This document shows positions 614 to 17,745 of a DNA stretch of 64,000 bases, piece after piece; within the stretch, counting starts at the first letter, position 1, and each line of letters opens with the position of its first letter. The notes beneath the pieces were generated by a model. That model made no database searches, was not told where the DNA came from, and saw only the letters and a program-made list of their open reading frames with translations. The DNA is taken from contig NZ_CANLWM010000002.1 in assembly GCF_947494875.1 (NCBI RefSeq), positions 1 through 64,000 on the forward strand. The letters run 5' to 3'. Source of the stretch: an uncultured Williamsia sp. Lineage in GTDB: Bacteria > Actinomycetota > Actinomycetes > Mycobacteriales > Mycobacteriaceae. The translations under genes were made by a program, and so were the position numbers.

Positions 614-1900
614 TCAGCGGGTCTTGACGCGCTTGGCCAGATCGATGGCCGGCTTCTCCACGAGGCGGTACGTGATGGATGCGCACACGAAGGTCGCCAC
701 GAAGACGATCACGAGGTTGCGGCCCAGTCCCGTCCATGTGTCCCCGCCGAGCACACCCCACCGGCCGAGGAGCATCAGCAGCGGGAAATGCCAGAGATAC
801 ATGCTCAACGAGATCCGACCCAGGTACTCGAACGGGCGCCAGTCGACGACCTCGGCGATGCGGGACCGCGCGTCGTGCGCCAGCGGCAGGACGATGATCG
901 CGATGATGAGCCCGCTGGCGAACGAAGTCGCCACGACCTGCTGGTTGCTGCCGCCGACGAGCAGCACGAGCATCACCAGCAGCGCGGGGAGCAGGAGGAT
1001 CGCGCTCACCCGGCGCGCCCAGACGGCGAACCGCGCGGACAGGGCGCCGGACTCGACGGCGACGAACAGCACCGCGGCGATCATGCCGAACGTGAAGGTC
1101 TGCGCACCGCCGAGGAAGCTGCGCAGGATCACCGCCGACCAGTTCGGACCGAAGTTGGCGGCGACGACGTCGTCGATGCCCTGGGCGCGGGCGATCGCGT
1201 CGGCGACGACGGTGCCGGCGACACCGAGCACACCGAACGCCACCGGCGCGATCAGCGCGAGCACCATCGGCGACGTACCGCGGCGGCGGCGCAGCGCGAA
1301 CAGGCCCCAGCCCACCAGCGGCAGGCTGATGTAGAAGGCGTATTCCAGCGTCAGCGACCACGACGGGTTGATACCGGTCTGGATGAGACCCGGGACGTAC
1401 GTCTGGACCAGGAAGAGGTTGGCCACGAGGGTGATCGGGTCGGTGATCATCCCGGTCCCGGCCTCGCTGCCGACGACCAGGGCCTGTTGGGCGTTGCGGA
1501 CGAACACCGCCTGCAGGACGAAGTTCGCGATGAGGAACACGACGAGGTAGCAGGGCATGATCCGCAGCACGCGGTGGACGACGAAGCTACGCACGTCCGG
1601 TTGGCGGTCCCGATCGGCGAAGAGCGCCCGCAGGATCGGCAGGTAGAGCAGGAACCCCGACAGCGCGAAGAAGAAGATCAGCGCCTGACCGAGGATCTGC
1701 AGCTTGCCCGATTCCGCGGTGTGCACGGAGTAGTGGCCCGCGACGTGCACCACGAGGATGCAGACGCAGGCGATGCCGCGCGGACCGTCGAGCCCGCGGA
1801 TGCGCTTGTGGCGCCGCGCCGCCGGCGTCGGCAACGCCGGTGACGGCTCCCCCTCGACGGGGGCACCGGAGGCGACGCCCCCGATCCGCTGGTCCGTCAT
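614..1900 (-). CDS. Membrane O-acyltransferase, acyltransferase-3 (OafA) family
   Basis: This 428-residue polytopic protein carries the family opening RGLDGPRGIACVCILVVHVAGHY (conserved R and H near the first membrane helix), FFALSGFLLYLPILRA, and about ten hydrophobic helices. The family transfers acetyl or other acyl groups from the cytoplasm to sugars or lipids at the outer membrane face. Start: ATG 1900 is preceded by AGGGAG at a good distance; an in-frame ATG at 1972 lacks this. It lies next to an exopolysaccharide cluster, which suggests O-acylation of the exported glycan. The acyl donor and acceptor cannot be told from sequence. Confidence 0.85.
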   Translation of the reverse strand: MTDQRIGGVASGAPVEGEPSPALPTPAARRHKRIRGLDGPRGIACVCILVVHVAGHYSVHTAESGKLQILGQALIFFFALSGFLLYLPILRALFADRDRQPDVRSFVVHRVLRIMPCYLVVFLIANFVLQAVFVRNAQQALVVGSEAGTGMITDPITLVANLFLVQTYVPGLIQTGINPSWSLTLEYAFYISLPLVGWGLFALRRRRGTSPMVLALIAPVAFGVLGVAGTVVADAIARAQGIDDVVAANFGPNWSAVILRSFLGGAQTFTFGMIAAVLFVAVESGALSARFAVWARRVSAILLLPALLVMLVLLVGGSNQQVVATSFASGLIIAIIVLPLAHDARSRIAEVVDWRPFEYLGRISLSMYLWHFPLLMLLGRWGVLGGDTWTGLGRNLVIVFVATFVCASITYRLVEKPAIDLAKRVKTR

Positions 1901-2109
1901 CGACTGTGCTCCCTGAGATCGCCGTCGGCAGAGTCCGACGTCCCCCGACGCGCCCGCCCCTGATGTGTGCACCTGGGATCATAGGGGGCGTCGGGCCGCT
2001 CGGCACCACGACGACGATTCACCGCCACCGACGGCGGTCGTGAGTGTGGTTCACTTCTCGCTGCGGGGGCACATCGACCGTCCTCCCCGTTCGCGAAAGG
2101 TCCGGATCC

Positions 2110-3636
2110 ATGCTCCGCCCGTCCCGCCGCCGCCTGCTCGCGGTGATGACGGCGATGCTGCTGACGATCGGCCTGACGGCCTGCGGTTCCTCGCGTCCCG
2201 CCCCCGCCCCGGCGACGCCGGCGAAGGCCGGTGTGGGTGACCGCGGCCACGGTTTCGGCATCGCCCTGGGCGCGGAGGTCTACTGGCAGGGCACGGCCGC
2301 CACGGACGCCGACCTCGACGCGATCGCCGCGGCCGGACTCGGGTCGATCCGTCTGCCGGTGTTCTGGTCGGCGATCCAACCCGTCGGCCCGACCTTCTCT
2401 CTCTGGTCCGTCGTCGACCACATCGTCGACGGCGCCCGCGCACGGGGCCTGCAGGTGATGGCGACCGTCGGCGGCAGCCCGCCCTGGGCGGGTGATCCCG
2501 AGGCGAACGGCGGGCCGTACGCGGCCCCGCGCGACGTCGGACAGTGGGCGACGTTCGTCCGCACGGTCGCGCAACGCTACAAGGGTCGGGTCTCGACGTA
2601 CGAGGTGTGGAACGAACCCAACAGCTCCGTGTTCTTCGCTCCCCGTGTCGATCCCGCGCTCTACACCCGCCTGCTGCGTGCCGCGCACGACGCGATCGTC
2701 GGTGTCGATCCGGGCGCGACGGTGGTGGCCGGGGCACTCGGCACGGTGATCGACACGGCCACCACGAGCGATCCCGTCGACTTCCTGCGGGAGATGTACG
2801 CCGACGGTGCGGCCGGCTCGTTCGACGCCCTGTCGGTGCATCCCTACAAGTACGACCTCGGTCTCGCCGAGGCGTGGACGGTGCCCGACTCGCCGGGTCG
2901 CCAGATCGCCGAGATGCGACGTCTCATGGGCGACAACGGTGATGGCGGCAAGCAACTGTGGGCGACCGAGTACGGCCTGCCGAGCTCGGCGGTCGGCCTC
3001 GACCGTCAGGCGAGCATGATCGCGGAGTTCGGTCGCGACTGGCGGCAGTTGCCCTTCGGCGGGCCGGTGTTCTGGTACACGTTGCGCGACAGGGCGACCG
3101 GCGTCCCCGACGACGAGGACAACTTCGGCCTCATCCGCACCGACCGGTCGCCGAAGCCGGCCGCCCGGGTCGTCGCCGACTACGCCCGGTCGGGTGTGAC
3201 GCCCGGGGCGGATGCGCCGCGGTTCGCCGACGCCCCCCTCGACGCCGCCGGCGGGGAGATCGTCAGCCCGGTCTTCCGCGCGACGCGGTCGGGGGTGTTG
3301 GCGAGGTTCCAACGCGACGAGGTCGTCTATCTCACGCCGACTGGTTTCGTCACGACCACACCGCCGATCGCACTGGCGGCGATCACCGCCGACAGCTACC
3401 CGACCGGGTTGTACGCCGACGACCACCAGGATCTCGCGGACGGCACGACCGTCTTCGAGTCCGACGACGGCGGCGTGCACGTGATCGGCAGCGGGGTGAT
3501 GGACGCGTGGTCACGGTCGCTGGGCGCCGCGCTGACCGACGAGACCCCGGTCGGCGGGGGTGCCGTGCGGGTCGACTTCCAACGAGGGTCGATCACCTGG
3601 TCACCGGATCGCGGGGCGATCCGGGCGATGTCCTGA
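2110..3636 (+). CDS. Secreted glycoside hydrolase lipoprotein (clan A TIM barrel)
   Basis: This is a 508-residue lipoprotein with a basic n-region, a hydrophobic core and a LTAC lipobox (Cys25). The barrel shows YEVWNEPNSS with probable acid/base Glu169 and WATEYGLPSS with probable nucleophile Glu287, the layout of clan-A glycosidases such as GH39/GH5. About 150 residues of a beta-rich tail follow. ATG 2110 has AAAGG upstream. It is divergent from the acyltransferase gene, and the 210-bp gap between them should hold both promoters. Inference: trimming or editing of the polysaccharide made by the neighbouring genes. Substrate unknown. Confidence 0.75.
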   Translation: MLRPSRRRLLAVMTAMLLTIGLTACGSSRPAPAPATPAKAGVGDRGHGFGIALGAEVYWQGTAATDADLDAIAAAGLGSIRLPVFWSAIQPVGPTFSLWSVVDHIVDGARARGLQVMATVGGSPPWAGDPEANGGPYAAPRDVGQWATFVRTVAQRYKGRVSTYEVWNEPNSSVFFAPRVDPALYTRLLRAAHDAIVGVDPGATVVAGALGTVIDTATTSDPVDFLREMYADGAAGSFDALSVHPYKYDLGLAEAWTVPDSPGRQIAEMRRLMGDNGDGGKQLWATEYGLPSSAVGLDRQASMIAEFGRDWRQLPFGGPVFWYTLRDRATGVPDDEDNFGLIRTDRSPKPAARVVADYARSGVTPGADAPRFADAPLDAAGGEIVSPVFRATRSGVLARFQRDEVVYLTPTGFVTTTPPIALAAITADSYPTGLYADDHQDLADGTTVFESDDGGVHVIGSGVMDAWSRSLGAALTDETPVGGGAVRVDFQRGSITWSPDRGAIRAMS

Positions 3637-3659: not shown

Positions 3660-4448
3660 TCAGCTGCGCAGGCGCCGGTACACCGCGGTGGCCAACGGGC
3701 TGCGGGCGAGGATCTCCCGGGGCGTCCGGGCGACATCGGCGACGAGGACGACGGGCGACCCGCCGAAGGTCGACCGCCGGAAGTGGTACAGCGTCCGGTT
3801 GTCGTAGCGCTGGGCGATCGCCGCGGCGTATCGATCGGCGAACTCCGCGTCGGCGAAGAACACCTTGTTGTAGCCGACGGCGAACGGCCGCAGGGCATCT
3901 GGACGCTCGAGGTAGCGCAGCGTCCCGGTCACGACCTCGGGCCACGCGAAGTTGAACACGTCGTCGGCGATCACCACGCCGCCCTTGGTGAGCGATCCCT
4001 CGGCCAGCAGCATGTCCGAGTACACGACGTCGTCGGTGTGACCGCCGTCGACGCTGAACAGTCGGACCTCGCCGTCGACCATCTGTCGCACGTCGTCGGC
4101 GGAGACGAGGGTCGAGTCGCCGGAGTGCACCGCGACCCTGGACGGGTCGGTGAAGCGGGCGACGTTGGCCTCGAACCGTGCGCGATCACCGCGTCCGGAC
4201 CGGTCGACGTTGAGCTCCTGGTCCTCGAAGAGATCGATGGCGACGGACTTCTCGTCGTCGCGCAGCAGCAGGTCGAGGCCGATCAGCAGCTGGCCGTGGT
4301 GGACGCCGATCTCGGCGGCGCCGCCGCGGATCCCCAGCGTCCGCTGGGTCGCGTCGAGCACCTTGATCAGCTCGAACACCTCGGGCTGGACCCACCCCCG
4401 GACCCGACGACGACCTCGACGGGCATAGGTCCCGAACTGCGTGCGCAT
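3660..4448 (-). CDS. Class I SAM-dependent methyltransferase
   Basis: This 262-residue protein has AAEIGVHHGQLLIGLDLLL as the SAM-binding glycine loop, and later VRLFSVDGGHTDDVVYSDM and GGVVIADDVFN, typical of the methyltransferase-24 type found in glycan clusters. There is no signal peptide, so it is cytoplasmic. ATG 4448 is the only reasonable start. Its 3' end converges on the glycosidase gene 23 bp away. Inference: O-methylation of a sugar or of a glycan end, possibly as a chain-stop signal. The acceptor is unknown. Confidence 0.75.
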   Translation of the reverse strand: MRTQFGTYARRGRRRVRGWVQPEVFELIKVLDATQRTLGIRGGAAEIGVHHGQLLIGLDLLLRDDEKSVAIDLFEDQELNVDRSGRGDRARFEANVARFTDPSRVAVHSGDSTLVSADDVRQMVDGEVRLFSVDGGHTDDVVYSDMLLAEGSLTKGGVVIADDVFNFAWPEVVTGTLRYLERPDALRPFAVGYNKVFFADAEFADRYAAAIAQRYDNRTLYHFRRSTFGGSPVVLVADVARTPREILARSPLATAVYRRLRS

Positions 4449-4511: not shown

Positions 4512-5747
4512 TCATCGCGAATCCGCGAACGTGGAGCACGAGTTCACGGGCGGGGTGTCGGTGAATCGCTCCCCCAACCAGCGCAAAGCCGCCTCCGTCG
4601 GGACGTCACCGTGACCGCGGTCGGGGTCGATGCGATACGTCACACTGCCGCCCTCGGCGCATTGGCGTGCGACGGCCGACCTGGTCCAGGGTGCGTCGAT
4701 GAACGTGTCCTGTCCTCCGTGCTCGACGTAGAGCGGCGCCGTCAGCGCGCCCTGCGGCAGGGCCCACGCGCGCAGCCGTGACCGCACGCGGTCGGCGGCG
4801 GCGGGGGTCGCCGGGGCCAGGTCGCCGGGACGCAGCGACCTGACCACCGCCTCCCGCTTCTCCAGCAAGGGCCCTGAGCAGGCGGTGAGCGCATCCCACC
4901 CGGTCGCGGCCGCGCCACGGCGATAGTCGTCCCGGTCGATGTCGGGGTGCAGTCGCGCGAGCGACTCGAGGACGGCCTGGAACGTCGGTCTCTGATCGGC
5001 GGTCAGGTCTCCGGCGAGCGCCTTGTCGACGAGGCCGGCGACGTCGGCCGCCGGTGCGATCGCCACCGCCCCGACCAGCGACAGATCCGGGGCCCGTGAC
5101 GACGCGAGGGTCGCCGTGGCCCAGGTCGCTCCGCCGCCCTGCGACCCGCCGTAGGCAGCCCAGCGCGTCGAGATGTCGGGGAAGGTCGAACGCAGGGCCC
5201 GCACCGCGTCGATCGTGTTGAGTCCGGCGGTCCGCGCGTCGAGATACGGGTGCACGCCGGACGATCCGAGGCCCTGGTAATCGGGGACGGCGACCGCGAA
5301 ACCGAGGCGAACGAACCCGTCGACCGCGTCGACCTGCTCGGACAGCGTCGGCGACGACGACGGCGCGCAGGCCGTGTCGATGCCCGTCGTGCCGTGGGCG
5401 AAGGCGATGACCGGCCACCCACCGACGGGCGCCGCCGTGCGCGGGGTGAACACCGCGCCGGACACCACCGTCGGGGCGCCTGTGTCGCCCGACGACGACC
5501 GATAGGTCACCCGGGCCGACCGCATCGACGACCCCGTCAGGGACCGGGTGAAGTCCGGCATCGGCTCGACGGACACCAACGATCCCGGTGCGTCACCGCC
5601 GATGCGGGCGAAGGGGTACGGCACGGGCGCCCGTCTCGACCCGTCATCCCGGGTGACGAGAAGCCCCACGACCGTCGCCGCGACGAACACGGTGGCCGCC
5701 GCGACCAGCGCAACGATCACCGTCCGCCGTCGGTGACCGATCCTCAC
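4512..5747 (-). CDS. Secretory lipase (LIP family), paralogue 1
   Basis: This 411-residue alpha/beta hydrolase of the secretory lipase family has one N-terminal membrane or signal segment (VIVALVAAATVFVAATVVGLLV) without a lipobox. It shows FAHGTTGIDTACAPS as the oxyanion strand and nucleophile elbow GGSQGG. The acid is in GGQDTFIDAPW and the histidine in DRGHGDVP. GTG 5747 overlaps the preceding stop by 4 bp (GTGA), so translation is coupled to paralogue 2. The family hydrolyses long-chain esters outside the cytoplasm. It is the last gene of a minus-strand run in which lipases alternate with Wzz proteins. Confidence 0.85.
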   Translation of the reverse strand: MRIGHRRRTVIVALVAAATVFVAATVVGLLVTRDDGSRRAPVPYPFARIGGDAPGSLVSVEPMPDFTRSLTGSSMRSARVTYRSSSGDTGAPTVVSGAVFTPRTAAPVGGWPVIAFAHGTTGIDTACAPSSSPTLSEQVDAVDGFVRLGFAVAVPDYQGLGSSGVHPYLDARTAGLNTIDAVRALRSTFPDISTRWAAYGGSQGGGATWATATLASSRAPDLSLVGAVAIAPAADVAGLVDKALAGDLTADQRPTFQAVLESLARLHPDIDRDDYRRGAAATGWDALTACSGPLLEKREAVVRSLRPGDLAPATPAAADRVRSRLRAWALPQGALTAPLYVEHGGQDTFIDAPWTRSAVARQCAEGGSVTYRIDPDRGHGDVPTEAALRWLGERFTDTPPVNSCSTFADSR

Positions 5748-7018
5748 CGCTGATCGGGCGAGGATGCGCCCGGCAGCTGCTCGACCGGCGGCGGGACGTC
5801 GCGGCCGCAGGTGTTCAGCGCCGGGGTGCCCTGGAAGCGGGCCTGGATCCAGGCCACAGCGACCGAGCCGTCGATGTCGTCGTGGCCCGCCTCGGGCAGC
5901 GTGTAGTTCTCGACGGTGTCGCCACGGCGGCACGCGTCATCGACAGCGTCGACGGTCCACGCCGAGTCCACCAGCTGGTCCTTGGCTCCGTGGACGACGA
6001 GCATCGGCGCGGCGGCCCTGCCGAACGGCAGGGCCATCTTCTGCAGATCGGCGCGCAGTGCTGCGGTCGCCGCCGGGGTGGCCGGGCGCAGGTCGTCGGC
6101 GGTGAGCTGCTTCACGACGGCGGTGCGCTGCTCGGCGAGCTCGCCCTGGCACGCGGTCAACACGTCCCAGCGACGTTCGGCGACCCCGCGCCGGTAGTCG
6201 TCGAGATCCATCTCGGGGTGCATCTTCTGTTGCGCCCACAGGATCCAGGGGAAGATGGCGAGTTGCTGCTGCGTCAGCGTCCCCGCGGCGGCCTTGTCGG
6301 CGAACCCGCTGATGTCGCTCACGGGGGCCAGGCTCGCCGTGCCCAGGAGGTCGAGACCGGCCGCGTCGCGCGCCGAGAGCTCATTCGCGGCCCAGGCGGC
6401 CTGGCCACCCTGCGACGACCCGATGGCCACCCAGCGCGTCGAGGTACCGGGCACGAGCTTGCGGGCCGCCCGGACGCCGTCGATCATGTTGTGCCCGACG
6501 GTCTCTGCGTCGAGATACGGGTGGTAGGTGTCGTCGAGCCCGAGGCCCTGATAGTCGGGCATGACCACCACGTAGCCGCGGTTGACGAGGATCCCGACGG
6601 CGTCGGCGTTGCCGAGCAGCGACGGCGACAGCGACGGCGCACATTCGTGCTGGACACCGGTGGTGCCGTGCCCGTAGGCCACGATGGGCCAGCCACCGGC
6701 CGGTGCCGGCCCGACCGGCGCGAACACGGTCCCGGACACCAGCTCGGTCGACCCGTCGACACCGGAGGTCGACTCGTAGGTGATCCGCGCGGCGGTCGAG
6801 GTCAGACGGGTGAGCCTGCGGTCCACGGTCGGCAGGCTGTCCGCCGACCTCAGCGTCCCCGGCCCGGAGCCCGAGAAGTCGCCACTGATCGGGACCCCGG
6901 ACGTCGACGCCGGCGGTGGGGGCGGGCTGCTCTGCGTACACGCGACCAGCGAGCTCAGCGCGGCCAGCAGGACGAGCACCAGCGCGGCGTCCCGACCGGT
7001 CCGGAGGCCGGGTCTCAC
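5744..7018 (-). CDS. Secretory lipase (LIP family) lipoprotein, paralogue 2
   Basis: This 424-residue predicted lipoprotein has a LVAC lipobox after a short hydrophobic stretch. Catalytic signatures are YGHGTTGVQHECAPS, GSSQGGQAAW (nucleophile), HGAKDQLVDSAW (acid) and EAGHDDIDGS (histidine). GTG 7018 overlaps the stop of the Wzz-like gene by 4 bp, and its own stop overlaps the start of paralogue 1. The family acts on extracellular or cell-wall esters. In this setting an acylated glycan or mycolate ester is conceivable, but that is inference. Confidence 0.85.
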   Translation of the reverse strand: MRPGLRTGRDAALVLVLLAALSSLVACTQSSPPPPPASTSGVPISGDFSGSGPGTLRSADSLPTVDRRLTRLTSTAARITYESTSGVDGSTELVSGTVFAPVGPAPAGGWPIVAYGHGTTGVQHECAPSLSPSLLGNADAVGILVNRGYVVVMPDYQGLGLDDTYHPYLDAETVGHNMIDGVRAARKLVPGTSTRWVAIGSSQGGQAAWAANELSARDAAGLDLLGTASLAPVSDISGFADKAAAGTLTQQQLAIFPWILWAQQKMHPEMDLDDYRRGVAERRWDVLTACQGELAEQRTAVVKQLTADDLRPATPAATAALRADLQKMALPFGRAAAPMLVVHGAKDQLVDSAWTVDAVDDACRRGDTVENYTLPEAGHDDIDGSVAVAWIQARFQGTPALNTCGRDVPPPVEQLPGASSPDQR

Positions 7019-7698
7019 GACACCCGCCCCGCGACACCGGCCCGGACCTGCGCGACGACGGTGTCGACCTGACGACGGTGCAGGACACGGTCGCCGAGCA
7101 ACCCGAGCGCGATCACACCGATGACACCCCACACGAATCCGACGGCCGCGGCGAGTCCGACGTCGCGCACCAGCGAGGAGTGCACGGCGACCGCCGGGTA
7201 GGCGCTGCCGACCGGCACCAACTGCGCCTGCGGGCCCAGCTCGTCGTTGTTCTCCAACTGGCGTGACACCGCGACGAGTGCGCCCGCGACCGCGGTCACC
7301 CGCCGTTCCGCGTCGGCCCGGTTGTCGGCGTCGACGGCCACCGTCAGCAGCACGGAGTCGATGCGTTGGGTGGCGGTGACGTGCGCCGCGAGGTCCGGCG
7401 CGGACCCACCGAGCAACTCGTTCGCCTTCGCGGCGATCTCCGGGGAGGTCGCGAGGTCGGCGTAGGTGGGGATCCGAACGCGTCCGCCGAGATCGTTCTG
7501 GGCGGCGGCGCGGGGGTTCGTCGGGCCGTCGATGACGGCGAAGAGGTCGAACCGCGAGGAGTACGTGGTGTCCGCGGTGGCCCAGACCGCGAACCCCGCC
7601 ACACCGGAGAGCAGGGTGACGGCGACGATCAGGATCCACCCACGCAGGGCCAGCCGGACGTAGTCGGCCGGCGACGGGACCGGGTGGGGCGGTCTCAC
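7015..7698 (-). CDS. Wzz-type chain-length determinant / membrane protein without kinase domain
   Basis: This 227-residue protein has two membrane helices (about residues 17-37 and 180-200) enclosing a roughly 140-residue outer domain that begins TTYSSRFDLFAVIDG. This is the layout of polysaccharide co-polymerases. It stops soon after the second helix, so there is no nucleotide-binding domain. The GTG start overlaps the stop of lipase paralogue 3 by 4 bp. Likely role: setting glycan length together with the polymerase and the longer Wzz-kinase encoded upstream. The arrangement between two lipase genes is unusual. Confidence 0.75.
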   Translation of the reverse strand: MRPPHPVPSPADYVRLALRGWILIVAVTLLSGVAGFAVWATADTTYSSRFDLFAVIDGPTNPRAAAQNDLGGRVRIPTYADLATSPEIAAKANELLGGSAPDLAAHVTATQRIDSVLLTVAVDADNRADAERRVTAVAGALVAVSRQLENNDELGPQAQLVPVGSAYPAVAVHSSLVRDVGLAAAVGFVWGVIGVIALGLLGDRVLHRRQVDTVVAQVRAGVAGRVS

Positions 7699-8954
7699 GT
7701 GCGCGGCGGACAGGTGTTGTTCGCCGCCTGTCCGGCGATCCGGTCCTTCAGCCAGGGCAGGCCGCGGTCGCTCTGGAGGTCGCCGTGGCCCTCGCCCATC
7801 CGCTTGTCGATCTCGATGGCGCCGCCGATCCGGCAGGCCTTGTCCGCGGCCGCCTGGGTCCACTGCCAGTCGACCAGCTCGTCCTTGGTCCCGAACATCA
7901 GCAGCATCGGCGCGTCCAGCGGGTTCTTCGGCAGGGCCCACTGCTCGAGGAGTGCGCGGAGACGGTCGGTGTCGGCCTGGGTGTCGGGCTTCAGGTCGGC
8001 GTTGGTCACGGACTCGCGGGTCTTGAGGACCACGTCCAGGTTCGCGGTGCAGTCCAGCAGCAGGGGCCATTTCTGCGCCAGCGACGGCGAGCGGTAGCGG
8101 TTGAGGTCCAGCGTCGGGTTCGTCCACGAGAGCGACTGCAGGGCGAAGATCAGCGCGACGCGCTGGTCGCCGGTGAGGGTGCCCGCCTGCGCCGCGTCGG
8201 CGAGACCGGACATGTCCGCCGGCGGCGCCATCGCCATCGTCCCCTTCAACGACATCCCGCCGCCGTAGGAGGCGTCGCGGTCGGCGGCGCCCCAGGCGGC
8301 CAGTCCGCCGAGCGAGTGCCCGAAGGCGACCCAGTTCGTGCTCACCGCGGTCGGGTCGAGGGCACGGGCCGCGCGCACGGAGTCGATCATGTTGTTGCCG
8401 TAGGTCGCACCGTCCAGGAAGGGGTTCAGGTATCCCTTGACGCCGAGTCCCTGGAAATCGGGCAGCGTCACCGCGAACCCGCTCTGGATCATGCTGGCCA
8501 TCATCGAGCTGTTGCCGACCAGCGTGTCGTACAACGACGGGGCGCACTTGTCGAGCACACCGGTGGTGCCGTGGCCGAACGCGATCACGGGCCACCCGCC
8601 CTTCGGGGGCGTGCCCGGCGGGATAGCGACCACGCCGGAGACCTCGGTGCGCGAGCCGTCGATCCCCGACGTCGAGCGGTAGACGACACGTTCGACACGG
8701 GCGTCGACGTCCTCGAGTTGTACGTTGCCCTCCAGCGGCCGCACCGACACGAGTGATCCCGGCGCCGACCCACCGAGCACCGGCGGGGGGACGGTCGGGG
8801 ATCCGACGAACGGCGGGGCGAAACTCGTCACCTGAGGTGAGTCACCCGGTGGCGGTGGGGGTGTCCCGGCCGTGCACGCCGACACCGCCGTCACGGCCGC
8901 CGCGACGATCGTGACGGCGATCGCTCGTCGTGGTGAACGCAGACTGCGGTGCAT
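7695..8954 (-). CDS. Secretory lipase (LIP family) lipoprotein, paralogue 3
   Basis: This 419-residue product has a basic n-region, a hydrophobic core and a VSAC lipobox followed by a Pro-rich linker. Signatures are FGHGTTGVLDKCAPS, nucleophile elbow GHSLGGLAAWG, acid in FGTKDELVDWQW and histidine in GEGHGDLQ. ATG 8954 has GGTAGGA just upstream, and only 4 bp separate it from the stop of the Wzz-kinase gene. The nucleophile elbow (GHSLG) differs from the GSSQG/GGSQG of the other two, so the three are old duplicates rather than recent copies. An extracytoplasmic esterase or lipase is well supported; the substrate is not known. Confidence 0.85.
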   Translation of the reverse strand: MHRSLRSPRRAIAVTIVAAAVTAVSACTAGTPPPPPGDSPQVTSFAPPFVGSPTVPPPVLGGSAPGSLVSVRPLEGNVQLEDVDARVERVVYRSTSGIDGSRTEVSGVVAIPPGTPPKGGWPVIAFGHGTTGVLDKCAPSLYDTLVGNSSMMASMIQSGFAVTLPDFQGLGVKGYLNPFLDGATYGNNMIDSVRAARALDPTAVSTNWVAFGHSLGGLAAWGAADRDASYGGGMSLKGTMAMAPPADMSGLADAAQAGTLTGDQRVALIFALQSLSWTNPTLDLNRYRSPSLAQKWPLLLDCTANLDVVLKTRESVTNADLKPDTQADTDRLRALLEQWALPKNPLDAPMLLMFGTKDELVDWQWTQAAADKACRIGGAIEIDKRMGEGHGDLQSDRGLPWLKDRIAGQAANNTCPPRT

Positions 8955-8958
8955 GGTC

Positions 8959-10473
8959 CTACCGATCCTGTGGTCCGTGGTCGTCGTCCGGGTCGTCCGC
9001 GAGGTGGTGGTTGCCACGGCGCCGATTCCCCCCACCTCGATTCGAGGGGCCGGACCCTCCGGATTGGTCGCCCCCGCCGGCGGGCGTTTCCGACCCGTGG
9101 GCACGACCGGCGTCGGTCACCACGGCACCGATGAACTCCGCGTGGGCGGTGGCCAGCGACTCGAGGCCGCGGCGCAGCGCCCCGCTGCGGGTGTGGCCGA
9201 GGCGGGCCAGGACGACGGCTCCGTCGCCGAGCGCCGCGGCGACCGCGCCGTCGGTGCAGACCCCGAGCGGCGGGGTGTCGACGACGACGTGGTCGAAACG
9301 CACGGCGAGGTCGGCGAACACCTGCTGGGCACGGTCGGAGCCCCACAACTGTCCACGGGAGGTCGGGAGCGGACCCGCGGGCAGCAGGGCGAACGGACGT
9401 CCACCGACCCGGGTGATCACCGCGTCGTCGAGGGTGTCGTCGCCGAGGAGCACCGTCGAGAGGCCACGTGTCGGGCGCCCGCGGCCGCCGGGGTCGCTGC
9501 TCAGCAGGCGGTCGGCGAGCGTGGGGGTCAACAGGTCTCCGTCGACGAGGAGCACGCGGCGACCCGATTCGGCGAGCACCGCGGCGAGGTCGACGGCGAG
9601 GGTCGACCGGCCGTCGCCGTGGGCGGGGCTGGTGACGGCCACCACGACCGGGCGCCCACCGTCGGCGGTGCGCGCGAAGCGCAGGTTGGTGGCGAGCTGA
9701 CGGACGCGCTCGACCAGTTCGCCGCCGGCGGTCGGGTCGATCGCGGGGACGCCGGGTCGGTGCGGGTCGGCGACGATCTCGCCCAGGACCAGGGATCCGG
9801 CGATGTCCTCGACACGCTCGCGGCGACGCACGCGGGTATCGACCAGAGCCAGGACGATCACGGCGATGACGCCGAGCGCGAGCCCTGCGACCGCACCGAG
9901 GCCGATGCGCGTCACCAGGGACGGGCCGGACGCCGAGGACGGGTAGTCGGCGTCGTCGACGAGGATCGCGCCGGCGGCGGGGGTGCCGCCGCGCCGTGAG
10001 GTCTCGAGCTCGCTGACCAGCTGCACCAGCTGGTCGGCGACCGCGTTGGCGTAGGTCTGCGCGGCGACCGGGTCGGCGTCGGTGGCGGTCACGTCGAGCA
10101 GGACCGTGTTCAGCACGGGCGCCGCGGAGATCTTCGATTGCAGTTCGTCGGCCGACATCGTCGACTTCAGCTGCTCGACGGCGCGGGCCGCGACCTGCCG
10201 GCTCGTCGCCAGGCTCGCGTAGGACTTCACGCGCTCCTGCGAGAACAGGTTGTTCTGATAGGCGTCACCGACGGAGGTGCCGCTCTGCGTGGTGACGAAC
10301 AGCTGTGCGGTCGACGCGTATTTCGGCGCCGCGACCAGCGACCACACGTATCCGCCGGCGGCCCCGATCACGGCGACGACCACGATCAGCCACCAGAACC
10401 GCCGGAAGGCGCGCAGATAATCCCCGATCGCCAAGGGGCGACTCCGTTTCGTGTGTGGTTGCCGATCCTTCAT
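8959..10473 (-). CDS. Wzz / bacterial tyrosine-kinase-like fusion for polysaccharide synthesis
   Basis: This 504-residue protein has an N-terminal Wzz domain with membrane helices near residues 26-46 and 187-210. A P-loop ATPase domain of the bacterial tyrosine kinase type follows. The Walker A' strand is RRVLLVDGDL (306-314) and Walker B is HVVVDTPPLG (395-404). The Walker A loop reads SPAHGDGRST (282-291), with Arg289 where the catalytic lysine is expected. The tail is Gly/Asp/Arg-rich and has no tyrosine cluster. Kinase activity is therefore doubtful; a structural or ATP-sensing role in chain-length control is possible. It is the first gene of the leftward lipase/Wzz run. Confidence 0.8.
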   Translation of the reverse strand: MKDRQPHTKRSRPLAIGDYLRAFRRFWWLIVVVAVIGAAGGYVWSLVAAPKYASTAQLFVTTQSGTSVGDAYQNNLFSQERVKSYASLATSRQVAARAVEQLKSTMSADELQSKISAAPVLNTVLLDVTATDADPVAAQTYANAVADQLVQLVSELETSRRGGTPAAGAILVDDADYPSSASGPSLVTRIGLGAVAGLALGVIAVIVLALVDTRVRRRERVEDIAGSLVLGEIVADPHRPGVPAIDPTAGGELVERVRQLATNLRFARTADGGRPVVVAVTSPAHGDGRSTLAVDLAAVLAESGRRVLLVDGDLLTPTLADRLLSSDPGGRGRPTRGLSTVLLGDDTLDDAVITRVGGRPFALLPAGPLPTSRGQLWGSDRAQQVFADLAVRFDHVVVDTPPLGVCTDGAVAAALGDGAVVLARLGHTRSGALRRGLESLATAHAEFIGAVVTDAGRAHGSETPAGGGDQSGGSGPSNRGGGNRRRGNHHLADDPDDDHGPQDR

Positions 10474-10658
10474 CGTTGTTGGTCGTCGGCAACGTCCGTA
10501 GTGACGGTGCCACCCTAGCCGGGGCATCCCCGCGACACATCTCCGACGACCCCGGTGTGACACTCCCGACGCCCCACCGCGCGGTTCGCCCGCACGGTTC
10601 GCAGCCTGCGGCGATGTCCCCCGATGCGGCTCGATCGTGCGGGTGTCACCATGTACCC

Positions 10659-12116
10659 GTGACGGACGGTGGTCGAGAGCGGCTCGCGACGCTCGGGGTG
10701 GTGGCCGTGCTCGTCGTGGGCCCGCTCGCCGGGGTCGCCGCCGTGCTCGGCGGCAAACTGGCGTTGATCGGTGTGGTCGGCCTGGCGGGCCTGGTGGTCG
10801 GCGCCTACGTCGGGCTGCGCCACCCCATGTGGCTCTACTACGGGCTCGGCGTCACGGTGGGCTTCCTGCCGTTCGGTGTCGTCCCGCTCGCACCGCTGCC
10901 GCTGTATCTCGTGTTCGGCGGGTCGGTGGTCCTCGCCGCCGCCCTGCACCCGTCGGCCGGGATGCACTGGCATCCGCTCGAGCGCACCCTGCTCGTCCTG
11001 GTGGCGGTGTCGGCCGTCTCGGTCGTGTTCTCCGCCGTGTCGATCTCGGACTACGTCGACTACGTGAAGTGGGCCCTGGTCACCCTCGCCGTGATCGGCC
11101 TGCTGCGGCTGTCGTCGGACAACATGCGCCGCGTCGGTGTGGTGTTCGTCGTCGCGGCCGCGTTCAACGCGCTGATCGGCATCGCCCTCTTCGCGTCACC
11201 GGGTCTGCCGCTGCGAAAGGCGTTCAGCGCCTTCGGATACGGCATCGTCGACGCCACCACCCGCTACGTCTACAACGCCGAGGGCGTGGAACAGTCCACC
11301 CGCCTCGGCGGGATGTGGGTGGAGCCCAACGCCGCCGGCATCGGACTGCTGACCGCGCTCTGCGTCGCGCTCGTCGTCCTCGAGGGATGGCGTCGCTGGG
11401 CGTTCGCGACACTGTTCGTCCTCGCGCTGGTGCTGACGCTGAGCCGTGGCGTCATCGTCAGCGTCGTCCTCGGCGCCCTGCTCGTCATGCTCTTCCACCG
11501 CATGCCCGACCGGCTGCGGGCGATCGCGGCCACGATCGGCGCGCTCGCCGTGGTGGCGGGCGCCGCGACACCTCAGATCCGCAACCGCCTGTTGCAGTCG
11601 TTCGTCGGACAGGACGTCAGCTCCTCGTCCCGTCAGGACGCGCTGAGCAACTTCCCGCACCAGCTCGCCGGCCACTGGTTCTTCGGGCTCGGGTGGGCGC
11701 GACCGGAGTTCAAGGACGGCGCCCTGGCCTTCCAGGTGAACTACGTGGCGAACGCGCCGCTGCTCACCGTCTACCGCGGCGGCGTGTTCGCCGGCCTGGC
11801 CTTCGTCGCCGTGCTGATCGCGGGCGCGATCGTCGGGTGGCGCCTCGTCACCGGTCGCTCGCTCCCCCGCGCGCTCGTCGGGGGCATCTTCATCGGTTTC
11901 TGCCTGGTGGGTCTGCAACTCGACCACCCGGTGGTGGCGACCCTGCCGGTCACCACGACGTTCTCGGTGCTGCTGGCGTTCCTGGTACACGCCGACCGGC
12001 TTCGACGTCTGGAGGACCCGCCGGCCGACCGGGTCAGCGGTTCGCGGCCATGGCGTCGACCAGCAGCGACCCCACCGCCTCGTGTGGACGCCGCTCCCGC
12101 CACCGCCGTGCGGTGA
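10659..12116 (+). CDS. O-antigen ligase/polymerase (Wzy-like) membrane protein
   Basis: This 485-residue polytopic protein has ten or more hydrophobic helices and a large periplasm-side loop. The loop contains RLGGMWVEPNAAGIG and, later, a stretch with SSSRQDALSNFPHQLAGHWFFGLGW, the region that carries catalytic residues in the Wzy/WaaL superfamily. GTG 10659 is the first start after a divergent 185-bp gap shared with the Wzz-kinase gene. The last 83 bp overlap the 3' end of the opposite-strand glycosyltransferase gene. Expected role: joining repeat units on lipid carriers outside the membrane, with length set by the Wzz proteins. Confidence 0.75.
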   Translation: MTDGGRERLATLGVVAVLVVGPLAGVAAVLGGKLALIGVVGLAGLVVGAYVGLRHPMWLYYGLGVTVGFLPFGVVPLAPLPLYLVFGGSVVLAAALHPSAGMHWHPLERTLLVLVAVSAVSVVFSAVSISDYVDYVKWALVTLAVIGLLRLSSDNMRRVGVVFVVAAAFNALIGIALFASPGLPLRKAFSAFGYGIVDATTRYVYNAEGVEQSTRLGGMWVEPNAAGIGLLTALCVALVVLEGWRRWAFATLFVLALVLTLSRGVIVSVVLGALLVMLFHRMPDRLRAIAATIGALAVVAGAATPQIRNRLLQSFVGQDVSSSSRQDALSNFPHQLAGHWFFGLGWARPEFKDGALAFQVNYVANAPLLTVYRGGVFAGLAFVAVLIAGAIVGWRLVTGRSLPRALVGGIFIGFCLVGLQLDHPVVATLPVTTTFSVLLAFLVHADRLRRLEDPPADRVSGSRPWRRPAATPPPRVDAAPATAVR

Positions 12117-13188
12117 TGTCGTGCAGTCGCTGTCCATCGGCGACGGCGGCGTCGACGTCGACCAGCAGTCGTCGTGCGGCGGTGACGACCGCGTCGTCGT
12201 CGGCGCATGTGTCGAGGCCGTAGACCTCGTCGAGTGATCCCACCGCCGCTCTCGTCCCGACGACCGGCAGACCGATCCGCGCGGCGTCGAGGAACTTCAC
12301 CCGCACCCCGCCGCCGGTGCTGATCGGCGCGACCATCCCGCGGCACGTCGCGAGGAAACCGTGCAGATCGTCGACGAAGCCGAGATCGCGCACGCCCGGC
12401 GGCAGGTCGACCGGTGTCGCCGAGGCGCTGCGGCCTCCGACGACGCAGAGCTCCGCACCGGCGATCCCGTCGGCGATCCGGGGCCACAGTGCCACGGCGC
12501 GCTCGAACGCCTCCTGGTTCGGCGGCCAGTCACGGGTCCCGAGGAACACCAGCCGTGGTGGAGTCGACGCGACGTCGACCGGATCGCCGGGCGGCAGTGT
12601 CAGGTCCAGCCAGCGGGCGCTGTCGACTCCGCGGTCGCGGTAGTCGTGCGCCTCGTCGGCGTCGAAGGTCGCGACGGCGTGCGCTGCTCGGGCGACGCGC
12701 AGTTCGTCCCGCACCAGGCGGGGCGCCTCCAGACGGCCCAGCAGGCCCCGGGTCGCCCGCCACACCAACGACTCCGACACATGGGTGTTCACCGCGAGGC
12801 GGTCGACACCGGCCCGTCGCGACGCGAGGAACGACTCCGCCATGTAGCTGTGCTCGGCGAGGTACACGTCGGCGTGGACGGACTCGATCACCGACCGCAG
12901 CTCGGGACTGTCGAAGCGGACGTGCACCAGGCTGCGCCGTCCCGCCAGTGACCGGCCCGCGAGCTGCGCGGGCGCGATCTCGGGCTTGCGGACGCGGTGC
13001 AGGGTGAGGCCACCGGGCACCAGGTCGGTCTCGACGGTCCCCGACTGCTCGGACAGACAGATCGCGGTGACCGCGAACGTGTCGGCCGCCAGCGTCATCA
13101 GCAGACGACTCAGTTCGACGTCACCGCCGCGTTCGAGGACCGGGTCCTTCGAGAGCATCAGTGCGACAGTCGGTCTCGGGCTCGTCAC
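12034..13188 (-). CDS. Glycosyltransferase (GT-B, GT4-like)
   Basis: This 384-residue protein has the C-terminal half of a GT-B enzyme: RLVFLGTRDWPPNQEAFERAV, then GVRDLGFVDDLHGFLATCRGMVAPISTGGGVRVKFLDAARIGLPVVGT. The last of these is the nucleotide-sugar binding end with its conserved acidic/Gly pattern. The N-terminal half begins TVALMLSKDPVLERGGDVELSRLL. GTG 13188 overlaps the flippase stop by 4 bp (GTGA). It is cytoplasmic and probably adds one sugar to the lipid-linked repeat unit. Donor and linkage are unknown. Confidence 0.75.
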   Translation of the reverse strand: MTSPRPTVALMLSKDPVLERGGDVELSRLLMTLAADTFAVTAICLSEQSGTVETDLVPGGLTLHRVRKPEIAPAQLAGRSLAGRRSLVHVRFDSPELRSVIESVHADVYLAEHSYMAESFLASRRAGVDRLAVNTHVSESLVWRATRGLLGRLEAPRLVRDELRVARAAHAVATFDADEAHDYRDRGVDSARWLDLTLPPGDPVDVASTPPRLVFLGTRDWPPNQEAFERAVALWPRIADGIAGAELCVVGGRSASATPVDLPPGVRDLGFVDDLHGFLATCRGMVAPISTGGGVRVKFLDAARIGLPVVGTRAAVGSLDEVYGLDTCADDDAVVTAARRLLVDVDAAVADGQRLHDITARRWRERRPHEAVGSLLVDAMAANR

Positions 13189-14378
13189 CGTCGCCTCCGG
13201 TAGATGGCCGTCGCATAGATGGTCAGCAGGATCGCGTCGGCCCCGACCGAGGCGATGGAGGCGCCCACGGCACCGATCGGCGCGAGCGCCGCGACCGCAC
13301 CGAGTTTCACGGGGACCAGACCCATGTTGGCGGCGAGACGCAGGATGTCGCGCCGCTGGGCGTACAGGATCACCTGCAGGATCGAGATCATCGTCCGCAT
13401 ACCGGTGAACAGCGAGATGATGATCATCGCGACGGCGAGTTCGGTGGGCGCGGGCGTCAGCAGCAGCACCACTCCGAAGATCGCGACCGCCGCCGTCGAC
13501 AGACCGCCGATCGCCAGCGTCAACTTCAGGGGCGGTCCCGATGACAACTTCCCGCCCGACAGGCGGAGCGGCTCGTGGTAGGTCATCCCGAACGACTGCC
13601 CGACCGCGGCGAGCGCCGCCGCGACGGTCCAGCACAGGGTGTAGTAGCCGGCGGTCCGGCTGTCGGTGAGGAAGCCCAGCAGCAGCACGTCGCCCTGGAG
13701 ATACAGTGCCGTGCCCAGCATCTCGCCGACGAGCGCGAGCGTGAGACGCGGCGGACCGGGCAGCTGCGGCCGGTGTCCGCGCGCCGCGAGCCCGGCGAGC
13801 ACGAGGATGACGTAGTACGGCGCGACGTAGAGGGCGCTGGCACCCAGCAGCGTCGGGTGGTCGACGCCGAACAGGTAGACGCAGGCGAGCGCCACGCTGA
13901 CGACCTGCCGGATGCTGTCCAGCCGCCAGACGCGGTCCGCCTTGCCGTCGCGGGCGAACCGACTGGAATAGGACTTGTAGGCGATCTCGCCGCCGGCGAC
14001 CGTGAGACCGAACCAGGCGATGTAGCTGACGCCGACGAGGGCTGTGCCCGCGGCGACCAGGGTCAGGCCGACGAGGAACCGGCTCGCGCGTTCGGCGACG
14101 AACCGTTCCTCGCTCTCGCGCATCGACCGCACGACGTACGGGTTGTCCAGCGGCGGCCCGATGACCGCCGACAGCGCGAACGCCATGCCGTAGAGCCCGT
14201 AGTCGGAGACGCCGAGCTGCGAGAGCAGCACGACGGTCCACAGCATGCCGACGCCGCGACCGCCGTAGAGCCACAGCATGGCGACCAGCGTGGTGAGCAG
14301 GTTGCTCTTGGCGGCCGTCGCCACCGCGCGCGTCTTCTCGGCGACCGGTTCGTCCTCGGGGGACGGACCGATGGTCAC
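13185..14378 (-). CDS. Wzx-like polysaccharide flippase (MATE/MOP superfamily)
   Basis: This 397-residue membrane protein has about twelve hydrophobic helices. The first ones (LLTTLVAMLWLYGGRGVGMLWTVVLL, SDYGLYGMAFALSAVIGPP) match the RfbX/Wzx lipopolysaccharide exporter style. GTG 14378 overlaps the stop of the next glycosyltransferase gene by 4 bp; an in-frame ATG at 14405 would make a longer overlap and is less likely. Expected role: moving the lipid-linked repeat unit across the membrane for Wzy. Together with Wzz and Wzy this makes a Wzx/Wzy-type export route. Confidence 0.75.
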   Translation of the reverse strand: MTIGPSPEDEPVAEKTRAVATAAKSNLLTTLVAMLWLYGGRGVGMLWTVVLLSQLGVSDYGLYGMAFALSAVIGPPLDNPYVVRSMRESEERFVAERASRFLVGLTLVAAGTALVGVSYIAWFGLTVAGGEIAYKSYSSRFARDGKADRVWRLDSIRQVVSVALACVYLFGVDHPTLLGASALYVAPYYVILVLAGLAARGHRPQLPGPPRLTLALVGEMLGTALYLQGDVLLLGFLTDSRTAGYYTLCWTVAAALAAVGQSFGMTYHEPLRLSGGKLSSGPPLKLTLAIGGLSTAAVAIFGVVLLLTPAPTELAVAMIIISLFTGMRTMISILQVILYAQRRDILRLAANMGLVPVKLGAVAALAPIGAVGASIASVGADAILLTIYATAIYRRRR

Positions 14379-15493
14379 CGCCGGTCCGTCAGCATGCGAT
14401 CCCACGTCGCGCAGAACCGGGCGGCGACCGCCTCGCGCGAACCCCGGCGGCGTTCGCCCTGCACCTGGCGGCCGGCGAGGGTGAGCGCGTCGCGGTCGTC
14501 GACGAGATCGCGGACCCGGTCGGCGACGACGACGGCGAGCTCGTCGGGGTCCTCGGGTGCGTCGCGGATCACGGTGACACCGTCACCGTCGCCGTGGTCG
14601 GCGAGCGCTCCGTGATCGGTGCAGATCACCGGGGTGCCGTACGCGATCGCCCGGGCCATCACCCCGGAGGCGGGGTATCCCATCCCGTACGGCGAGCGTC
14701 GACCGTAGGGCATCACCAGTGCACGGATGGAGGCGAAGAACGCGTCCTCGTCCGGACCGTCGACGCCGCCGACGATCTCGACGCCGTCGACGCGGGGCAG
14801 GTCCTCGGTCCCACGACCGGCCACCCGGATGGCGATGTCGTCGTCGAGTCGGGCGCGGAGCCGTTCGAGCTGCTCGAACCCCTTGCCGCGGTAGACGAGT
14901 CCGAAGAAGCCGATCGCGCGGGGACGGTCCTGCGGCGGGGTGATGTCGGGTCGGCACGCCACGATGTGCGGAACCTGGACCACGTCGAGGTGCGGGTACA
15001 GCGGTCGGATCGACTCGGCACCGCTGCGGGTCAGCACGAAGGCCGTCGTCGGCCGCAGCCACCGACGCTGCACGCGGTACGAGAGCGGGCGTAGCGGGAA
15101 GTGCACCGCGTGGTTGAGCAGTCGGTGCTCGGCGAGGAACCGCGTGCGCACCGGCCACCAGATCGAATGCGGCGGGTCGTGGATGGTCGCGCTCACCGGG
15201 ACGTCGTCGCAGATTCCGGCGGTGCCCCAGAACGCGGCCACCGCGCCACCGCTGAGCTCGGTGTGCACGAGCACGGGACCGGGGGCCGTGGCGACCATCT
15301 CGCCGATCGCCGCGCTCTGGCGGCGCAGGTCGGCCACGGAGTCGTCACCGGGCATCCCGGTGCGGTGTTCGAGCAACTCGCCCACGTGCGGGCGGACCGC
15401 GTCGATGACGTCCTGCGAGTAGTCACCGACGCCGCCCACACCGACCTTCGGGGCGACGACGACCAGTCGCGCCCCGCTCAGCGCCGAGGCCAT
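14375..15493 (-). CDS. Glycosyltransferase, family 4 type
   Basis: This 372-residue GT-B enzyme has N-terminal VVVAPKVGVGGVGDYSQDV. The C-terminal donor site includes AIGFFGLVYRGKGFEQLERL, and then SPYGMGYPASGVMARAIAYGTPVICTDHG, the usual GT4 acceptor/donor loop. ATG 15493 overlaps the preceding TGA by one base (TGATG). It is a soluble or membrane-peripheral enzyme inside a run of coupled sugar-building genes. The sugar it adds cannot be deduced. Confidence 0.8.
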   Translation of the reverse strand: MASALSGARLVVVAPKVGVGGVGDYSQDVIDAVRPHVGELLEHRTGMPGDDSVADLRRQSAAIGEMVATAPGPVLVHTELSGGAVAAFWGTAGICDDVPVSATIHDPPHSIWWPVRTRFLAEHRLLNHAVHFPLRPLSYRVQRRWLRPTTAFVLTRSGAESIRPLYPHLDVVQVPHIVACRPDITPPQDRPRAIGFFGLVYRGKGFEQLERLRARLDDDIAIRVAGRGTEDLPRVDGVEIVGGVDGPDEDAFFASIRALVMPYGRRSPYGMGYPASGVMARAIAYGTPVICTDHGALADHGDGDGVTVIRDAPEDPDELAVVVADRVRDLVDDRDALTLAGRQVQGERRRGSREAVAARFCATWDRMLTDRR

Positions 15494-17429: not shown

Positions 17430-17745
17430 CTCGCTGCCCCCATGTGGCTCAGGTCGAACAAACTGACGGTCCCACGACGCCGTTTGTGGTGAATCCACGA
17501 AGCCCGCTCAGTGTCCCGTGTTCGGACCACATTGCGGAGTCTTTGCGAGCAATTCGTGATCATTGTCACCACGTGTGCCGGTTCCAGCCCCCCAGCCAGA
17601 ACCTGCCACCGATCGTGCGTGTTCCCGCCCATCTTCACATCGCTAAGGAGCCGGCGCCACCGCACGCGCGGTTTGGAAGAGTCCGCGCCCACCCGATAGA
17701 GTCCGTTCTCGGCCGTCGTCGGTCCACGCCGCCGCCGGACGACCT
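17430..17745. promoter_or_regulatory. 316-bp intergenic region with tRNA promoter
   Basis: No gene is seen here. The stretch separates the leftward polysaccharide genes from the rightward tRNA pair and is clearly less GC-rich than its neighbours. A good promoter for the tRNAs is TTGGAA at 17673-17678 and TAGAGT at 17697-17702, with an 18-bp spacer, placing the transcript start about 35-40 bp before tRNA-Asn. The leftward promoter for the glycosyltransferase gene should also lie here, but no box stands out. Confidence 0.6.

Follow-up and report, generated by a model that had tools for sequence, protein, structure and literature searches.

The question raised by this locus is why genes for secretory lipases should alternate with genes for Wzz chain-length proteins in a single operon. 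The locus lies in a stretch of 64,000 nucleotides from an uncultured Williamsia sp. (contig NZ_CANLWM010000002.1, positions 1 to 64,000; here called the window), and a first, sequence-only reading had proposed that acyl groups are added to an exported glycan and then trimmed outside the cell, with the trimming tied to chain-length control.

The operon and its glycan neighbourhood

On re-reading of the window, the gene order, coordinates and strand given in the sequence-only reading were confirmed. The operon runs leftward on the minus strand in the order wzzK, lipC, wzzS, lipB and lipA. The first gene, wzzK (8959..10473), encodes a Wzz (PCP) domain together with a degenerate BY-kinase-like domain and is followed, after a 4-bp gap (8955-8958), by lipC (7695..8954; slot C), which encodes a lipoprotein lipase with a predicted CalA/XooLipA fold. 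The next gene, wzzS (7015..7698), encodes a small Wzz-like co-polymerase without a kinase domain, and is followed by lipB (5744..7018; slot B), encoding a second lipoprotein lipase, and by lipA (4512..5747; slot A), whose lipase product carries an N-terminal hydrophobic segment and is probably membrane-anchored. The other three junctions are GTGA overlaps of 4 bp, as had been claimed, and were located at 7695-7698, 7015-7018 and 5744-5747.

Beyond lipA lie a gene with a PF13578 methyltransferase profile match (3660..4448, minus strand), a GH5-like glycoside hydrolase gene with an LGFP repeat (2044..3636; PF00150, PF08310) on the plus strand, opposite to the operon, and a PF01757 membrane acyltransferase gene (614..1900, minus strand; 97.1 bits). 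On the other side, a Wzy-like polymerase gene is divergent from wzzK on the plus strand (10305..12116 as open reading frame bounds, with the true start inside; PF04932, 32.1 bits against a cut-off of 31.7). It is followed, all on the minus strand, by a glycosyltransferase gene (12034..13188; PF13692), a gene for a membrane protein that is Wzx-like by position only, matches 0 Pfam families and is a recurrent neighbour in relatives (13185..14405), a second glycosyltransferase gene (14375..15490; PF13692), a gene for a hexapeptide-repeat, WcaF-like acetyltransferase (15493..16146; PF00132, 31.8 bits, with the WcaF-family models below their cut-off) and a third glycosyltransferase gene (16251..17498; PF00534). 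Thus, a Wzy-like gene, barely above the PF04932 cut-off, stands with three adjacent glycosyltransferase genes, as is expected of a Wzx/Wzy cluster. The two acyltransferases that had been described as flanking the region proved to be of different kinds: that at 614-1900 is a member of the conserved module described below, and the one at 15493-16146, a hexapeptide-repeat acetyltransferase, is encoded in the midst of the glycan genes.

Conservation of the alternation in the family

The wzz-lip-wzz-lip alternation was found in at least 41 of 401 sampled genomes of the family, in 5 genera, and was also present in two named mycobacteria. The best 4, best 6 (order-wide) or best 7 candidates were scored per genome, and the genome counts are accordingly lower bounds; the stretches examined came from 58 of at least 168 matching genomes, plus the window, and yielded 42 fetched modules, 41 of them strict. 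The non-strict one, in genome G383, has a broken slot-C lipase frame; its triad was left unscored and does not enter the 50 slot-C copies counted below. This recurrence rules out chance neighbours, and it is the opposite of the absence from all relatives that the sequence-only reading had named as grounds for giving up its proposal. A comparison of the LipB protein with a plasmid collection gave no match at 1e-40 that would point to plasmid-borne copies.

The PF01757 acyltransferase gene lies downstream of the lipase genes on the same strand in 39 of the 41 strict fetched modules, and in 34 of them it is the next labelled gene after lipB. A GH5/LGFP match, on either strand, was likewise found in 34 of the 41, and the PF13578 methyltransferase gene also follows lipA in the modules of W. 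serinedens, W. deligens and genome G004. Moreover, among the modules examined, one from Rhodococcus and one from Mycolicibacterium contain a SASA carbohydrate esterase. In eight loci, wzzK and lipases occur with neither wzzS nor a PF01757 match in the fetched stretch, and therefore neither of the two is strictly required.

Lipases of this family are not confined to the operon. The 4.77-Mb genome has 17 PF03583 matches; 14 lie outside the operon, and the other three are packed into 4.5 kb next to two Wzz genes. This abundance would suit ordinary nutrient lipases, held in the matrix and freeing fatty acids from outside lipids with no part in polysaccharide synthesis, and binding of a lipase to a matrix has been studied for P. 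aeruginosa lipase LipA and alginate (PMC3733896). However, such a role would not account for the way the lipase genes alternate with two Wzz genes, for their 4-bp overlaps and slot-specific clades, or for the inactive slot-C copies kept by selection (see below), and we consider it improbable.

In the order-wide sample, strong lipase matches were seen in 16 genomes, all of them (16/16) members of the window's own family, which we take to be mycolate-bearing. Furthermore, a simple script, unable to tell anchors from signal peptides that are cleaved, assigned a lipobox or an N-terminal hydrophobic segment to 177 of the 179 lipases. Both observations would be consistent with lipases that open the envelope, remodelling mycolate-layer lipids locally for passage of the polymer and so replacing a Wza-type outer-membrane channel, which is not known from these bacteria. 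Nevertheless, the module is present in 41 of the 401 genomes although 203 of them have a Wzz match at 1e-30, and an opening function of this kind seems to us as improbable as that of nutrient lipases.

Two putative co-polymerases and a predicted pseudokinase

The two proteins that had been called Wzz proteins do not stand on the same footing. The Wzz domain of WzzK is well supported (PF02706, 40.8 bits against a cut-off of 25.5), and WzzS has no Pfam match and reaches 26 bits with TIGR01006, far below the cut-off of 296. WzzS is 40% identical to WzzK over residues 10-218, and in the tree it branches apart from every one of the 35 WzzK rows, with a support of 92.

The label of kinase given to the larger protein did not hold. 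In the window's WzzK the Walker A lysine is replaced by R289, and there are 0 Tyr among the last 70 residues. The Walker A lysine was found in 0 of 50 lipase-linked WzzK copies and in 8 of 9 controls; similarly, the C-terminal 70 residues hold 0-1 Tyr in 48 of the 50 module copies and 2-4 Tyr in 7 of the 9 controls. The controls were nine loci screened for lipases within about 1.5 kb only; locus L033, which belongs to another cluster in the same genome and has a lipase close by, is not one of the nine, and the wzzK of genome G334, which is in two open pieces, stands outside the 50. Since the WzzK sequences are related by descent, the absence of the lysine may go back to one single loss. On these motifs the kinase domain of WzzK is a predicted pseudokinase, and regulation by this protein through phosphorylation finds no support, as it is without both the Walker A lysine and the Tyr tail.

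The comparisons with known systems draw on PMC12786566 and PMC12004946, besides PMC4183827, PMC4329599 and PMC6719172. The module resembles PCP-2a, the Wzc-like co-polymerases with a BY-kinase, in having a Wzz/BY-kinase-like fusion beside glycosyltransferases and a Wzy-like gene; it differs from them in that its copies are without the Walker A lysine and Tyr tail, in the extra kinase-less Wzz and in the interleaved lipases. A closer parallel in the kinase domain is the bipartite PCP-2 EcpK/EpsV of Myxococcus xanthus, for which a phosphorylation-independent model of a BY pseudokinase with a PCP-2 has been described, and in which a co-polymerase is likewise served by a BYK-like domain whose Walker motifs are degenerate and which ends without a Tyr tail. 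WzzK shows both of these features, judged by sequence. Unlike EcpK, which is stand-alone and binds a separate PCP, the pseudokinase of the module is fused to Wzz in one open reading frame, and a second Wzz follows the pseudokinase-Wzz with lipoprotein lipases interleaved.

The lipases and their possible role in acyl chemistry

All three lipases of the window passed the PF03583 cut-off of 23 bits with 57.1 (LipC), 60.4 (LipB) and 72.5 bits (LipA). A CalA-type fold is predicted to span most of the protein: the AF2 model of LipB has a pLDDT of 84.4, and its Foldseek matches include 4ezi, CalA and XooLipA. The lipases thus share with CalA (Candida antarctica lipase A) and Xanthomonas oryzae LipA the profile match, the predicted fold and, in most copies, the triad; they differ in having a lipoprotein or hydrophobic N-terminus, in lying inside a glycan operon and in the repeated inactivation of slot C. 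In agreement with the earlier description of two lipoproteins and one membrane-anchored lipase, a simple motif script found lipoboxes in LipB and LipC and an N-terminal hydrophobic segment in LipA, and a strict lipoprotein motif is present in 41 of 51 slot-C and 32 of 43 slot-B copies.

Every lipase had been said to keep a Ser-Asp-His triad. This is correct for all three in the window (S214/D358/H390 in LipC) and for slot B, intact in 43 of 43 copies, but not for slot C in relatives, where the triad was lost in 8 of 50 scorable copies and kept in 42, including that of the window. Active hydrolases in all three positions everywhere are therefore ruled out by slot C. The lipase slots form slot-specific clades in a tree of 123 of 179 sequences (64 of 98 in the Wzz tree); the trees were quick searches with no bootstrap and with long-branch warnings, and hence the counts of events are approximate, and the slot-C losses, like the WzzK sequences, are related by descent, so that Fisher values for either contrast come out too significant. 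Despite several catalytic losses the slot-C gene is, judging from dN/dS, under purifying selection, with some inactive pairs looking more relaxed (0.50 for G361/G073; 0.37 for G002/G006, whose slot B gives 0.31). Several losses combined with purifying selection suggest that LipC probably has a role that is at least partly glycan-holding or scaffolding.

These results bear on whether acyl chemistry is tied to the chain-length proteins, as had been proposed. The conserved alternation, with PF01757 in the same cassette, supports such a link, and the repeated inactivation of slot C argues against a plain trimming role for at least one of the lipase positions. Trimming along the lines first proposed, in which the PF01757 and hexapeptide enzymes add acyl groups and the lipases strip them outside, setting viscosity or timing chain termination, agrees with the acyltransferase and esterase genes within one cassette and with Xanthomonas LipA, described as an esterase with an octyl glucoside site (PMC4329599). 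As pure trimming by all three lipases is a poor fit to the catalytic losses in slot C, we regard it as plausible at somewhat less than an even chance.

Alternatively, the lipases may act as transacylases, taking fatty or mycolyl chains off membrane lipids and placing them on the emerging polysaccharide, which would anchor the polymer in the mycolate outer membrane; the building of polyacyltrehalose by Chp2 is comparable. The mycobacterial acyltrehalose transesterases Chp1 and Chp2 are likewise membrane-bound alpha/beta hydrolases encoded beside a glycolipid pathway, and Chp2 performs acyl transfer on the periplasmic face; they differ from the module lipases in being cutinase-like and in acting on trehalose lipids with MmpL10 instead of a Wzy polymer. 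To our knowledge, neither is known as a PF03583 protein. The restriction of strong lipase matches to the window's family in the order-wide sample and the mostly lipoprotein nature of slots B and C would suit grafting. Periplasmic acyl transfer by a mycobacterial alpha/beta hydrolase is on record (PMC4183827), and CpLIP2 of the CalA superfamily performs acyl transfer even in water (PMC6719172). On the other hand, the nearest sequence match among solved structures bears the name esterase, and the SASA carbohydrate esterase of the Rhodococcus and Mycolicibacterium modules fits acyl removal. We give grafting the same chance as trimming, somewhat short of even.

The reading that we put forward, at even probability, is an exopolysaccharide assembly module whose lipoproteins, predicted to have the CalA fold, work on ester-linked acyl groups of the exported glycan; LipB and LipA would be enzymes, and LipC would tend to be a non-catalytic partner. 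The module would supply export and chain-length control in an exopolysaccharide cluster of the Wzx/Wzy type, adapted to a glycan that is acylated and to a mycolate outer membrane. The PF01757 acyltransferase would add ester groups to the glycan, and the two Wzz co-polymerases, one pseudokinase-fused and one kinase-less, would operate without tyrosine phosphorylation, each co-produced with a lipoprotein of the CalA/Xanthomonas LipA fold on the outward-facing side of the membrane. LipB and LipA, whose triads are intact, would work on the acyl groups of the emerging chain, by hydrolysis or by transfer, and LipC, adjoining the pseudokinase Wzz, would be at least partly a glycan-holding or scaffolding partner. 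The operon and its conservation, the slot clades, the pseudokinase motifs, the triad losses and the predicted fold are observations, and we infer the siting at the Wzz complex, the substrate, the direction of the acyl chemistry and the effect on length. The alternation of lipase and chain-length genes in a tight, conserved operon suggests that the exported polysaccharide has its acyl decoration dealt with at the site of chain building.

A bolder version, which we think rather unlikely, would have two types of dead enzyme run the co-polymerase, a Wzz-fused pseudokinase inside and, outside, a slot-C partner of lipase fold that is drifting towards a pseudolipase and grips the acylated glycan. The wzz-lip-wzz-lip order would then be a doubled Wzz-plus-lipase unit, so that each Wzz owns one lipase, and length or release would be set by glycan acylation at the Wzz cage and not by tyrosine phosphorylation.

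Wzx/Wzy co-polymerases and CalA-type lipases are both known, and the variant here is the interleaving of the two in one operon. Among the open-licence papers listed in literature searches, none dealt with lipase genes that alternate with Wzz genes, which is weak evidence of absence. Exopolysaccharides with ester-bound palmitate and stearate have been described from Rhodococcus erythropolis and R. rhodochrous, bacteria related to the module hosts; the texts consulted name no genes for them.

In conclusion, little is understood of the way in which bacteria enclosed by a mycolate outer membrane assemble a polysaccharide coat, set its size and keep it in place. The module offers a defined set of genes across several genera, including two named mycobacterial genomes, and predicts that chain length would be controlled through acyl chemistry at the surface in place of tyrosine phosphorylation. 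The module may further indicate the genes behind the ester-linked fatty acids on the polysaccharides of mycolate bacteria.

The operon and its distribution in the family

The window lies at the left end of contig C2 in a genome of 4.77 Mb, and it carries five genes on the minus strand: wzzK (10473-8959), lipC (8954-7695), wzzS (7698-7015), lipB (7018-5744) and lipA (5747-4512). The three lipases matched PF03583 above cut-off. WzzK, a Wzz domain fused to a degenerate BY-kinase-like domain, matched PF02706, and the small kinase-less WzzS, which matched the chain-length model at sub-threshold level only, shared 40% identity with WzzK across residues 10-218. These coordinates bore out the junctions described in the sequence-only reading, namely three GTGA overlaps and one 4-bp gap. 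The closest named matches of the lipB region were Williamsia serinedens (86%) and W. deligens (77%). Upstream of the operon were a Wzy-like ORF (PF04932 barely above cut-off), three glycosyltransferases, one hexapeptide acetyltransferase and a presumed flippase, for which the Pfam search gave no match; downstream were a methyltransferase, a PF01757 acyltransferase and, on the other strand, a GH5-like hydrolase with an LGFP repeat. A further module-type lipase was found on the minus strand of contig C9 (270162-271325), with the right end of the contig 1.3 kb beyond. In the matching region of W. serinedens, an acyltransferase, a glycosidase and a lipase are consecutive, and by this comparison the fourth lipase is probably a member of the same operon, cut here by a gap between contigs. 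Separately, a second glycan cluster of this genome (C8:134000-150000) encoded a PF03583 lipase of divergent sequence together with glycosyltransferases, a Wzy_C protein and proteins resembling Wzz; a lipase thus lies near Wzz twice in the genome.

A profile built from 18 module lipases matched 168 of 401 family genomes at 1e-75. The stretches around the matches were inspected in 58 of the 168, plus the window, and the order wzz-lip-wzz-lip was present in at least 41 genomes, the window's included, which is a lower bound because inspection was confined to these stretches. The alternation, for which the sequence-only reading had proposed a count in related genomes, therefore recurs: it was found in 7 of 8 sampled genomes of the window's genus and in 19, 8, 6 and 1 genomes of the genera coded g6, g9, g45 and g17, respectively. 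Mycolicibacterium sp. P9-64 and Mycobacterium sp. AZCC_0083 both have the order; among the 41, the first lipase frame is broken in G383 and wzzK is split into two pieces in G334. The same 41 genomes came up again, at 6.2e-56 or better, when 18 sequences of the small Wzz were used for a search of their own and kinase-type matches were excluded; the two sets are only partly independent since the small-Wzz profile was trained on module members, with 25 of the 41 genomes outside its training set. In an order-wide sample of 298 genomes, all 16 with lipase matches at 1e-75 belonged to the window's family, and weaker lipase relatives were present outside it.

Coupling, content and history of the module

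Apart from the window, 42 modules were fetched, 41 of them strict (the exception being G383, with its broken lipase frame). Exact 4-bp overlaps joined lipase to wzzS in 36 and wzzS to lipase in 37 of the strict modules, and wzzK to lipase in 12, the remaining 29 being at most 8 bp apart; these figures are somewhat biased toward 4 bp, as the script chose the start closest to such an overlap. A PF01757 acyltransferase followed downstream on the same strand in 39 of the 41, and in 34 no other labelled gene separated it from lipB; a third lipase was likewise present downstream in 39, and a GH5/LGFP match lay nearby in 34. In the one Rhodococcus and one Mycolicibacterium module inspected for it, a SASA carbohydrate esterase (PF03629) lay in or directly beside the module (Rhodococcus sp. 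G-MC3, L101:13527-14390; Mycolicibacterium sp. P9-64, L162:7572-8396). A sister architecture lacks wzzS and has one to three lipases after a degenerate wzzK; it occurred in eight fetched loci (L133, L134, L135, L144, L147, L152, L153 and L157), where hexapeptide acetyltransferases were often on the opposite strand.

In a tree of 123 lipases with the triad columns removed, the lipases preceding wzzS (slot C) of the 27 included wzzS-bearing modules formed one group (support 99). The slot-B lipases fell, in 26 of 27 cases, into a separate group (99) that also took in 8 other rows, and a third group (98) joined 41 of the 49 slot-A lipases to 6 rows of other kinds. In the Wzz tree, a branch with support 92 parted all 35 wzzK rows from the wzzS rows. 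The alternation was therefore not rebuilt genus by genus, and the two Wzz genes with the C and B lipases may have arisen by doubling of a unit of one Wzz and one lipase. The Williamsia cassettes (L137-L140, L034, L035) comprised two lineages in the lipase tree, one near mycobacterial copies and the other near g9, a split that suggests the complete cassette was transferred horizontally.

Changed active sites in slot C and in WzzK

The Ser-Asp-His triad was intact in 43 of 43 slot-B and 65 of 66 slot-A lipases; slot C had 42 intact, 8 changed and 1 unscored owing to a broken frame, and lipases outside the three slots had 16 intact, 2 changed and 1 unscored. The difference between slots C and B (Fisher p = 0.007; in wzzS-bearing modules only, 5 of 42 vs 0 of 43, p = 0.026) is a guide only because the rows are related. 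On the tree as read, slot C lost its triad on at least four branches (G361/G239/G073; G002, which is W. herbipolensis ARP1, with G006; G007/G108; G352), and tree-wide changes numbered 8 when unscored and non-slot-C rows were counted. For the inactive pair G239/G073, dN/dS was 0.27, compared with 0.21 for its lipB and 0.31 for one of its slot-A lipases; G361/G073 (0.50) and G002/G006 (0.37 vs 0.31 for its lipB) were more relaxed, and the values for two slot-C pairs with intact triads were 0.06 and 0.20. By these ratios the triad-less gene remains under constraint, perhaps less so. However, against a reading of slot C as non-catalytic, most of its copies are intact, including lipC of the window. 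In two further slot-C lipases (L121:6008-7222 and L122:5501-6712), the triad is intact and the conserved His-Gly motif, which we take to be the oxyanion loop, is Gln-Gly, perhaps an early stage toward inactivity.

WzzK is a predicted pseudokinase. The Walker A lysine was absent from all 50 scored copies directly preceding a lipase (35 arginine, 15 other residues), and 48 of the 50 had at most one tyrosine within the last 70 residues. Among nine control Wzz-kinases from the same genus, without a lipase within about 1.5 kb, eight kept the lysine and seven had 2-4 tail tyrosines. The lysine may have been lost once in an ancestor, since the copies from modules are all grouped on a single side of the tree. 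EcpK of Myxococcus has been described as a pseudokinase and proposed as a scaffold for its co-polymerase (PMC12004946); in contrast, the predicted pseudokinase domain of the module is fused to Wzz.

Possible role in polysaccharide making

AlphaFold models of LipB (pLDDT 84) and LipC (83) matched Candida antarctica lipase A, Ustilago CalA-like lipases, Xanthomonas LipA and Legionella lpg1103, a likeness at the level of fold, which is no proof of function. Xanthomonas LipA is reported to bind octyl glucoside (PMC4329599), and a CalA-superfamily enzyme to carry out acyl transfer in water (PMC6719172). The module lipases are very probably part of the polysaccharide pathway, and it is somewhat likely that the exported glycan is acyl-esterified. 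Ester-bound palmitate and stearate are known from Rhodococcus polysaccharides (PMC12786566), of strains that may or may not carry the module. There is about an even chance that LipB and LipA act on acyl esters of the glycan at the outer face, transfer and hydrolysis being equally allowed by the evidence; that LipC is mainly a binding partner of WzzK seems rather unlikely. Among the openly licensed papers screened, no account of lipase genes interleaved with Wzz genes was found. Every component of the module comes from an already known family; what appears new is their combination, its conservation and the presence of two kinds of inactivated enzyme.
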